The notes under the pieces are model-generated. The model was given only the letters and a program-made list of their open reading frames with translations. It ran no database searches and had not been told where the DNA came from. Shown here piece by piece: positions 48,219 through 51,056 of a stretch of 51,056 bases of DNA. Location: the NCBI GenBank assembly GCA_005893225.1, contig VBOT01000136.1, positions 1 to 51,056 of the forward strand, in the 5' to 3' direction. A program made the translations under genes and the position numbers. The stretch's first letter is position 1. Each line of letters begins with the position of its first letter. The DNA comes from Candidatus Eiseniibacteriota bacterium (lineage in GTDB: Bacteria; Eisenbacteria; RBG-16-71-46).

Positions 48219-49277
48219 TCACCCTTCCTCGATCCACTCCACGCCGCGCTCGCCCGCCACCACCTCGCCGATCCGGTGGACCTGCTCCCCCGCCCGGGCC
48301 AGATCCTCGCTCAGCCCGGGGGCCGCCGCCCCCGAGCACACCACCACCATCCCAATCCCGAGGTTGAAGGTCGCGCGGGCTTCCTCCTCCTGAACCTCGC
48401 CCGCCTCGATCAGCCACCGGAAGACTCCGGGTCGCGGCCAGGAGCCCGCCCGGATCCGCGCGCGCACCCCCTCCGGCAGCACCCGCACCAGGTTCCCGGC
48501 GATGCCTCCGCCGGTGACGTGGGCGAGGCCGTGGAGGCGTCCGGATGGGAGCTCGGGGACCAGGGCCGGGCCATACCAGCGATGCGGGCGGAGCAGGGCC
48601 TCCATCACGGTCTCGTCCTCTCCATGCGGAAGTGGGGAGGCCGCGGTCAGTCCAGACCGGGCGAGGATCCGGCGCGCGAGCGAGTAGCCGTTGGTGTGGA
48701 GTCCGCTGGAGCAAAGGCCGAGGATCTCGTCGCCCGCGCGGATCCTCGATCCATCGATGAGCTCCTCCCGGCTCACGCTCCCGACCATGCATCCGGCCAC
48801 GTCGACCACGCCGGGCCGGTAGGTGTCGGGCATCTCAGCGGTCTCGCCCCCGAGCAGGGCCGCCCCAACCTCCAGGCACGCCCGGCTCAGGCCCTGGACG
48901 ACCGCCATGACGACCTCGGCGTCGAGTCGCTCCTGGGCGATGTAGTCGAGCAGCGCCAGGGGCCGTCCGCCGTGGACCAGGAGATCGTTGGCGCCGTGGT
49001 ACACGAGGTCGGCGGCCACATCCGCCACCCGGCCCGCCTCGAGCCCGAGGTGGAGCTTGGTGCCGGCGCCGTCCATCGAGGCGGCAAGCAGGAGGGGCTC
49101 CGGCTCGAGCCCGGCGCCTCCGGGTCCCGGCACCCGGGCCGGCCAGCTCATCACTCCCGCGAAACCGTCCGGAAGACGGCACACCCCGGCGCCCCAGGTC
49201 GAGCGCACCAGCGGCCCGAGCCGCGCCTTCACCGCATGCGAGCGTCCGAGGTCGACGCCGGCGTCGCCGTAGCGCAT
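48219..49277 (-). CDS. purM: Phosphoribosylformylglycinamidine cyclo-ligase
   Basis: YGDAGVDLGRSHAVKARLGPLVRSTWGAGV; DGAGTKLHLGLEAGRVADVAADLVYHGANDLLVHGGRPLALLDYIA; LGGETAEMPDTYRPGVVDVAGCMVG. Confidence 0.95.
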   Translation of the reverse strand: MRYGDAGVDLGRSHAVKARLGPLVRSTWGAGVCRLPDGFAGVMSWPARVPGPGGAGLEPEPLLLAASMDGAGTKLHLGLEAGRVADVAADLVYHGANDLLVHGGRPLALLDYIAQERLDAEVVMAVVQGLSRACLEVGAALLGGETAEMPDTYRPGVVDVAGCMVGSVSREELIDGSRIRAGDEILGLCSSGLHTNGYSLARRILARSGLTAASPLPHGEDETVMEALLRPHRWYGPALVPELPSGRLHGLAHVTGGGIAGNLVRVLPEGVRARIRAGSWPRPGVFRWLIEAGEVQEEEARATFNLGIGMVVVCSGAAAPGLSEDLARAGEQVHRIGEVVAGERGVEWIEEG

Positions 49278-50605
49278 CAGCCGCGGGCCTGGAGGGGCCT
49301 GAGGCGTAGCAGGTCGAGATCTTCGCTGGTGGGGCTCGGAATGAGCGGGAATCGCCCGCCCCGATGGAGATCGAGCAGGCACTGGACGACCGGGTCGTCG
49401 AACTGGGTGCCCGCCCCGCGCCCCAGCTCCTTGAGCGCGGCGTCGACGGACAGCGCCCGGCGGTAAGGGCGGTCCGAGGTCATGGCGTCGAACGCGTCCG
49501 CGACGTTCAGAATCCTGGCTCCGACCGGCACGTCCCGGGCGCTCAGCCCGACCGGGTAGCCCTTGCCGTCGGGCCGCTCGTGATGGCTGCGGACGATCTC
49601 CGAGGCTCTCCGGAGCGCCCGGACCTTGGAGACGATCTCGGCCCCCGCCGCCGGGTGAGCGCGCAGCGTGCGTTGCTCGTCGCGGGACAACGAGCCGGCC
49701 TTGCGGATGATGTGCTGGTGCTGGGGCCCGATCTTGCCCAGGTCGTGAACCAAGGCGGCGTACTCGATCTCCTCCACCTCGCGCTCCGCGAGCCCCAGGC
49801 CGCGCGCGATCCGCACCGCGTACTGGGACACGCGTACCGAGTGGTGGCGCGTGTAAGGATCCACCTCCTCCAGCACTTCCGAGAGCGCCCTCACGAAGTC
49901 CTTGAGGTCGGAGCGGATCTCGACGTAGAGGCGGAACGAATGGCGTGCCACGAGTGCGGGGATGGCGAACAGGCCGAGGCCCCAGGAGCCGACCCCGAGA
50001 TAGGTGACGGTGACCAGGGCGCCGAGCGCGATGAACGACACGTGATGGAGGATGCCCTGCTGGAAGTTGCGCTGCCACACCCGGTAGGGGTTGGGACCCT
50101 CGGAGAGGCCGATCACGGTGGACACCAGCGCCGCGTTGGTCAGGAAGTAGGCCATCCCGCATGCCGAGAGGGGACCCAGATCGTGCATCAGGCCAAGCTG
50201 CCCGATCCGGCCTCCGGCGGCCGTGAAGGCCAGCCCGGCGGCGAAGTCCGTGATCGCGAAGTTGGCCAGGTTGAAGACCACCCGGATCGTGGGCTTGCGC
50301 AGCACGAAGGCCTGGACCACGAGCGCGCTCAGCACGTCCAGCGCCGCGGTGTAGAAGGGACCGATGAGGATCAGGCAGGGGATGTCGATGACCGCGCCGG
50401 CGTTGGCGAAGCCGCCGCTCGGGAGCGTGATGGGCGCCGCCTCGTCGAAGCACATGAGGAGGACCACCAGCGCCATCACGAGCAGCGGGGGGCGCGCCGC
50501 ATGCGGCGCCGCCAGCGCGAAGAGCGCTCCGGCCAGCGCCACGGCGCTCGCGTAGTAGGCCCGGAACAGCCACGGATGCCGGGGGCTCGGCAGGTCCAGG
50601 TGCAT
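49277..50605 (-). CDS. HD-GYP domain protein with N-terminal multi-TM sensor region
   Basis: N-terminal hydrophobic helices; YTRHHSVRVSQYAVRIARGLGL, ALVHDLGKIG, VRSHHERPDGKGYPVGL, RILNVADAFDAMTSDRPYR. Confidence 0.93.
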   Translation of the reverse strand: MHLDLPSPRHPWLFRAYYASAVALAGALFALAAPHAARPPLLVMALVVLLMCFDEAAPITLPSGGFANAGAVIDIPCLILIGPFYTAALDVLSALVVQAFVLRKPTIRVVFNLANFAITDFAAGLAFTAAGGRIGQLGLMHDLGPLSACGMAYFLTNAALVSTVIGLSEGPNPYRVWQRNFQQGILHHVSFIALGALVTVTYLGVGSWGLGLFAIPALVARHSFRLYVEIRSDLKDFVRALSEVLEEVDPYTRHHSVRVSQYAVRIARGLGLAEREVEEIEYAALVHDLGKIGPQHQHIIRKAGSLSRDEQRTLRAHPAAGAEIVSKVRALRRASEIVRSHHERPDGKGYPVGLSARDVPVGARILNVADAFDAMTSDRPYRRALSVDAALKELGRGAGTQFDDPVVQCLLDLHRGGRFPLIPSPTSEDLDLLRLRPLQARG

Positions 50606-50708: not shown

Positions 50709-50762
50709 TCACCAGCCGGCCTTGCCGAAGAAAGTCAGGAGAAACAGGATCAGGTCGTCCAC
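50709..50762 (-). CDS. Putative 17-aa hydrophobic micro-ORF MDDLILFLLTFFGKAGW
   Basis: Minus strand AAAGGAGGTGGGTTCCC-GTG GAC GAC CTG ATC CTG TTT CTC CTG ACT TTC TTC GGC AAG GCC GGC TGG TGA; strong SD with 9-nt spacing from AGGAGG; 15 of 17 codons end in G/C. Confidence 0.5.
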   Translation of the reverse strand: MDDLILFLLTFFGKAGW

Positions 50763-50863
50763 GGGAACCCACCTCCTTTGCGAGTGACTCACCAGGAAGC
50801 AACGACTCCAACTCGGTGTGGGTCCGCTTCGCTACCCGAAGGCTCTCCGCTTCGCTCTCCTCC

Positions 50864-51056
50864 TTAGGACGATGTCGGTCTCAGGACGTACTCGGTGGGC
50901 TCCTTGGTGCGGAGCCCGCCGATGACACGGTTCATAGCGGCCAAGGTGGCGAGGACCACGGCCTGCTGCCGGTCCTGATCGATGGTGCAGCAGCCCGCCA
51001 GGCTCTTGCGCTCGCGGTGGGCCAGGAGCTCCACTCCGACCACCGCGACGTCGCGC
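50864..51056 (-). CDS. C-terminal part of a hypothetical protein, truncated by the window edge
   Basis: Frame reads ...RDVAVVGVELLAHRERKSLAGCCTIDQDRQQAVVLATLAAMNRVIGGLRTKEPTEYVLRPTSS* with high GC3. Confidence 0.65.
   Translation of the reverse strand, partial: RDVAVVGVELLAHRERKSLAGCCTIDQDRQQAVVLATLAAMNRVIGGLRTKEPTEYVLRPTSS

Follow-up and report, generated by a model that had tools for sequence, protein, structure and literature searches.

A conserved micro-ORF in a structured RNA upstream of HD-GYP phosphodiesterase genes in Eisenbacteria and other bacteria

The micro-ORF and its neighbouring genes

The window analysed here, a stretch of 51,056 nucleotides from a Candidatus Eiseniibacteriota bacterium, carries close to its end a gene for an HD-GYP phosphodiesterase with a multi-transmembrane, MASE9-like sensor (49277–50605, minus strand; HD_5 8.9e-37, MASE9 1.1e-4). 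The MASE9 score of this protein, 22.7 bits, falls just under the curated Pfam cut-off of 24.3, which is exceeded in the relatives at loci L082 (26.3) and L107 (26.1). No MASE9 match was obtained for the HD-GYP proteins of Gemmatimonadota loci L102 and L104 or Clostridial locus L123.

On the same strand, positions 50864–51056 encode the C-terminus of another protein, which consists of an N-terminal alpha/beta domain and a region resembling the allosteric domain of LeuA. The gene runs past 51056, and a short run of N in the contig interrupts the window copy. An AlphaFold2 model of the protein has a pLDDT of 90.6, and Foldseek matches its second half to the LeuA regulatory domain (1.2e-5); one relative of the protein matches PF08502 at 4.4e-4, below the cut-off. 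Weak Foldseek matches to double-stranded RNA-binding domains rank below those to LeuA, and the idea that this protein might be an RNA-binding regulator is speculation.

Between these genes lies a micro-ORF (50709–50762, minus strand). Read directly, it starts with GTG at 50762 and ends with TGA at 50711–50709, and its 17 codons specify (M/V)DDLILFLLTFFGKAGW (peptides here and below are given up to the stop codon). The Shine-Dalgarno (SD) sequence, AAAGGAGGTGGG in the window, corresponds to the feature AAAGGAGGTG at 50770–50779; AAGGAGGTGG is present in all ten of the first set of Eisenbacterial loci, mostly with an A before it. The micro-ORF is alone in a gap of 258 nucleotides that extends from the TAA of the upstream gene (50866–50864) to the ATG of the HD-GYP gene (50605), and on recounting 15 of its 17 codons end in G or C. 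All of this agrees with a preliminary description of the locus, made from the sequence alone. Neither Pfam nor NCBIfam yields a match for the peptides.

Structured RNA around the micro-ORF

The preliminary description had linked the micro-ORF to the HD-GYP gene, but it overlooked the RNA structure in which the micro-ORF is embedded. A long-range helix (P1) joins the 5' end of the element to a segment beyond the micro-ORF. Its 5' arm (GAGACCGACATC, 50871–50882, minus strand) occupies the end of the upstream coding sequence and pairs with the 3' arm (GATGTCGGTCTC, 50659–50648). Inside P1 are two AGCGAAGCGGA repeats (50846–50856 and 50823–50833, minus strand), each carrying a copy of the motif AGCGRA and the second being near-invariant. 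The motif occurs on average 2.62 times per element, compared with 0.135 times in shuffled sequences. A second helix (P2) is formed by an anti-SD arm, ACCCAC (50818–50823, minus strand), whose first base is shared with the second repeat, and by GTGGGT (50767–50772, minus strand), which overlaps the SD; in the window this helix reads GGACCCAC/GTGGGTTC. The minimum free energy fold of the window element includes both P1 and P2, and its energy is modestly low (z = -1.59).

P1 covaries both inside and across phyla. Of its alignment cells 95.3% are paired, and 5 of its 12 pairs have changed on both sides. In the alignment of 16 Eisenbacterial sequences as a whole, 94.7% of cells are paired, seven pairs have changed on both sides, and covariation reaches 0.223, as against 0.127 (sd 0.015) after shuffling and 0.06–0.09 with slid partners. 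Compensatory base changes thus exceed those in the controls, and the element is a conserved structured RNA. The arms of P1 differ among groups, for example GCGAGCCGGGGCC/GGCCCCGGCTCGC in Armatimonadota and AAGCCAAAACATCGA/TCGATGTTTTGGCTT in Clostridia. Because MAFFT did not align the Clostridial P1 arms correctly, P1 in that group was tested by arm-matching controls. The mean score of P1 with its own arms is 34.9, versus 23.0 for shuffled arms and 22.4 for arms taken from different groups; when arms are mismatched within one group, scores of 32.7–38.7 drop to 19.8–25.4. P2 pairs clearly with the SD region in Eisenbacteria and Clostridia, and weakly in Armatimonadota and Gemmatimonadota. In Eisenbacteria P2 is 95.8% paired, with one-sided changes only.

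The distance from the stop codon to the 3' arm of P1 is mostly 0–19 nucleotides in Gemmatimonadota, 5–35 in Clostridia, 6–23 in Eisenbacteria outside the family of the window, and 36–52 within that family. T content just past P1 is raised in Eisenbacteria (0.35 versus 0.22) and Clostridia (0.47 versus 0.34), and is not raised in Armatimonadota (0.24 versus 0.24). Searches of Rfam, including the GEMM riboswitches, gave no match on the window stretch at E up to 1 and, for eight loci from other lineages, none at the element at E up to 10. No tRNA or tmRNA was found.

Distribution and selection

When 99 relatives were searched with blastn, the gap matched nine genomes of the same family besides that of the window, and several of these alignments span 50900 to 50711, ending exactly at the stop codon of the micro-ORF. 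A 108-position RNA model of the element, derived from ten loci, finds a strong match in 18 of 20 genomes of the family, including all ten of high quality, and only one strong match per genome. After every strong match that was read, all but that at L027, there is a micro-ORF ending in G[KR][AG][GS]W or in something close to it such as TKAGW; products include MDFIYELIEFLGRAGW, VDLILELVTFFGRAGW and MDDVVKVIITFLGKGGW. Start, tail and stop of the micro-ORF are kept in genomes of this family. Other families of Eisenbacteria have weaker model matches with an identical layout, and their peptides end in NGGRAGW (L043), SGGQSNWW (L040) or SRGHW (L042).

Some model matches were set aside. Those at L032, L035, L036 and L038 (genomes G015 and G017) are weak and represent AGCGAAGCGAAG repeats with the reading MSEAK; short ATGAGCGAAGCGAAG repeats, again reading MSEAK, occur there at several places and are unrelated to the element. 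The match at L041 was treated as chance: no such micro-ORF follows it, and its family (f5) is without the upstream protein. L045 (the same genomic site as L049) belongs with the weaker matches of identical layout in other Eisenbacterial families; its micropeptide, SGGHAWWANGGHAWWMSGGHAWW, ends in three tandem copies of GGHAWW that differ synonymously.

Loci outside Eisenbacteria were gathered with the upstream protein as bait, and relatives of this protein were found in groups including Gemmatimonadota, Armatimonadota and Clostridia. Homologous micro-ORFs, 113 of them distinct, occupy the same slot between the gene with the LeuA-like regulatory domain and the HD-GYP gene in Eisenbacteria, Gemmatimonadota, Armatimonadota and Clostridia. 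In most loci of sufficient length, a hydrophobic micro-ORF preceded by an SD lies between the bait gene and the downstream gene, although such frequencies are biased, since loci were gathered via the upstream gene and micro-ORFs chosen by a rule combining SD and hydrophobicity. Under this rule a minority of Gemmatimonadota loci have no micro-ORF (for example L121, L135, L153 and L155). Wherever the catalytic motif falls inside the available stretch, the downstream gene encodes an HD-GYP protein. Some Armatimonadota loci had seemed to lack the micro-ORF or the HD-GYP gene; this was wrong, as a recheck in which the flanks were extended and the SD rule relaxed revealed the micro-ORF in 16 of 16. 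In five of these 16 the available stretch contains no HD-GYP catalytic motif, and a long ORF follows the micro-ORF. Typical peptides are MAKVISVLLSLMALVLAGGAGWTWK and MKKIWASVLTLLMSLISLLLAGGALFSFR in Clostridia, VGKWTSVLLALLSLILAGGARLAWP and MKTLVKVLLALASLVLTSGAFGRFWPPP in Armatimonadota, and MLQISWLAAAMNFVANLFLAEGQNWD in Gemmatimonadota. The preliminary description had missed both this pan-phylum conservation and the identity of the upstream gene.

Across 31 disjoint pairs of micro-ORFs, differences number 122, 49 and 217 at the first, second and third codon positions, and pN/pS is 0.31 in frame as opposed to 0.96 and 3.10 when the frame is shifted. This pattern clearly points to purifying selection on the micro-ORF frame, as in a translated protein-coding gene; within Eisenbacteria pN/pS is 0.46. 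Conservation and selection together strongly support the earlier proposal of a real, translated ORF below annotation cut-offs that is tied to the HD-GYP gene. By these measures the micro-ORF is a genuine gene missed by annotation, with conservation far beyond chance.

In the typical peptide a hydrophobic stretch leads through a Gly-Ala or Gly-Gly turn into a short tail, and in 86 of 101 peptides Trp is the last or second-last residue. Peptides of Clostridia and Armatimonadota follow the order charged, hydrophobic, GA, tail, with exactly five residues after GA in 30 of 53. In these two groups pN/pS is 0.21 up to the GA turn and 0.28 in the tail, so diversifying selection on the tail was not found. 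The family of the window differs. There pN/pS is 0.87 in the head, which evolves almost freely, and 0.22 in the last five codons; the conserved part is therefore the GKAGW tail rather than the hydrophobic head, a point missed earlier. Judged by inspection, a hydrophobic segment of transmembrane length is present in most peptides of Clostridia, Armatimonadota and Gemmatimonadota and in none from the family of the window, whose 16–18 residues are too few to span a membrane.

Possible functions of the micropeptide

HD-GYP enzymes set the level of c-di-GMP and thereby influence the choice between motile and sessile life. To our knowledge, the inputs of their membrane sensors are mostly undescribed. 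The recurrence of a micro-ORF and folded RNA before a membrane-bound, c-di-GMP-degrading enzyme in at least four phyla points to a widespread and apparently undescribed control unit. The proposals made in the preliminary description (a membrane-acting peptide, a partner of the multi-transmembrane HD-GYP protein, or a leader peptide) are still the foremost candidates for its function. We found no description of HD-GYP proteins with small or leader peptides in the open-access literature, nor any in Rfam, Pfam or NCBIfam. The element resembles GEMM c-di-GMP riboswitches in being a structured RNA near a gene for a c-di-GMP enzyme, but it differs from them in having no Rfam match.

Our preferred reading, to which we give an even chance, is that the element is a self-contained gene for a membrane-acting micropeptide that is gated at translation and works with the adjoining HD-GYP sensor. 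With the RNA ends paired in P1 and the SD covered by P2, the micro-ORF would be weakly translated. Either recognition of the AGCGRA repeats by some factor or disruption of P1 or P2 would free the SD. The peptide would be a short helix, hydrophobic or amphipathic, that carries a small turn of GA, GG or GK and a tail that is usually aromatic. It would then enter the membrane and act on the HD-GYP sensor as a subunit, modulator or ligand, tuning the breakdown of c-di-GMP. We prefer a membrane peptide acting in trans because a hydrophobic helix, turn and short tail are the commonest constant among the peptides and because no arrest motif is universal. The fixed slot between the upstream gene and the HD-GYP gene in four groups across phyla, the frame-specific selection, and the constrained leader of the Clostridial and Armatimonadota peptides are consistent with such a role, as are the multi-transmembrane N-terminus of the adjoining enzyme (MASE9-like in several cases), the pairing of the SD in P2, the scores of P1 above shuffled and mismatched arms, and the single strong match per genome in the family, which is unlike a mobile toxin. 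Against it stand the peptides of the window's own family, with their short length and nearly unconstrained heads, the weakness of P2 in Armatimonadota and Gemmatimonadota, and the modest fold energy in the window.

Small membrane-protein regulators encoded beside their targets, such as CydX and MgrB, are well known. The micropeptides are like these in having about 25 residues, one hydrophobic stretch, and conserved synteny with a multi-transmembrane enzyme. They are unlike them in that translation seems to be gated by a dedicated RNA and in that the candidate partner is a c-di-GMP phosphodiesterase; in the window's family they are moreover too short to span the membrane.

P1, which surrounds the ORF, fits a cis-acting attenuator at least as well as the preferred reading, and a ribosome-arrest leader peptide acting through P1 is a possible, if clearly less probable, explanation. 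A ribosome pausing at the C-terminus or stop codon would mask the 3' arm of P1 and prevent a terminator or closing helix from forming, turning the HD-GYP gene on; without translation P1 would form and the gene would be off. Arrest leader peptides such as TnaC and SpeFL are likewise encoded by short ORFs with a strong SD upstream of the gene they regulate. The micro-ORF shares with them this arrangement and conserved residues near the stop, and some micropeptides also have a Pro-rich or Trp-containing end. The explanation remains strong because the 3' arm of P1 often lies only 0–35 nucleotides past the stop codon in several groups, because T content rises past P1 in Eisenbacteria and Clostridia, and because some Armatimonadota tails end in WPPP. 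These tails, IWPPP, FWPPP and YWPPP, found in part of the Armatimonadota only, are similar to FXXYXIWPPP/WPPP, an established arrest sequence (PMC11669330). The prevalence of Trp at the last two positions and the conserved tail in the window's family fit arrest as well. However, there is no single arrest motif, and Clostridial tails such as NYTLI, LFSIR and GFKLV contain neither Trp nor Pro. Unlike TnaC and SpeFL, the element has an RNA closed at its ends and, in most phyla, a peptide with a membrane-type hydrophobic body; an arrest peptide of 25 residues needs no charged, hydrophobic N-terminus, yet this part is conserved. T content past P1 is flat in Armatimonadota, and in the window's family the 3' arm of P1 would lie beyond the reach of a stalled ribosome. 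With P1 so distant there and the peptide too short to span the membrane, the window locus itself favours neither a trans-acting peptide nor an arrest leader.

A bolder extension of the membrane-micropeptide reading, which we regard as doubtful, is a pan-phylum module from peptide to c-di-GMP in which the RNA would meter the micropeptide, its C-terminal tail (perhaps cleaved at GA) would be the ligand of the HD-GYP sensor, and the protein with the LeuA-like domain would be the input sensor. It is improbable that the micropeptide is a secreted signal, that is, a mini signal peptide cut after the GA turn whose tail (such as GWTWK or RLAWP) is sensed by the membrane domain of the HD-GYP protein. 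The five-residue tails and the GGHAWW copies at L045 would suit such a signal, but no exporter, protease or receptor was identified, the tail is not diversifying, and the peptides of the window's family are devoid of any signal peptide. Hok- and AapA-type toxin mRNAs and RNAIII are structured RNAs that encode peptides, and the element is similar to them in its paired ends, sequestered SD and short hydrophobic product; a type I toxin-like membrane peptide is nevertheless very unlikely, as the element is neither mobile nor multicopy, has fixed synteny over several phyla, and is tied to HD-GYP genes.

A conserved gene for a micropeptide, set in a putative regulatory RNA of its own beside the enzyme, offers a direct and testable candidate for the input of HD-GYP membrane sensors. 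The module is present in both Gram-positive and Gram-negative-type phyla and was apparently overlooked for its small size. It represents an RNA family that Rfam does not contain, and it illustrates that genes of fewer than 30 codons can stay conserved across phyla.

The genes behind the micro-ORF vary in some lineages. Two loci of the Armatimonadota/Hebobacteria type have tandem HD-GYP genes after the micro-ORF (L107, 5026–6393 and 6396–7748; L105, 5009–6337 and 6340–7533). Clostridial loci have, after the HD-GYP gene, a gene whose product is a small membrane protein that contains an RGGK..NL motif (L123, 6024–6599; L128, 6025–6597; also L233 and L234) and looks like DUF5317.
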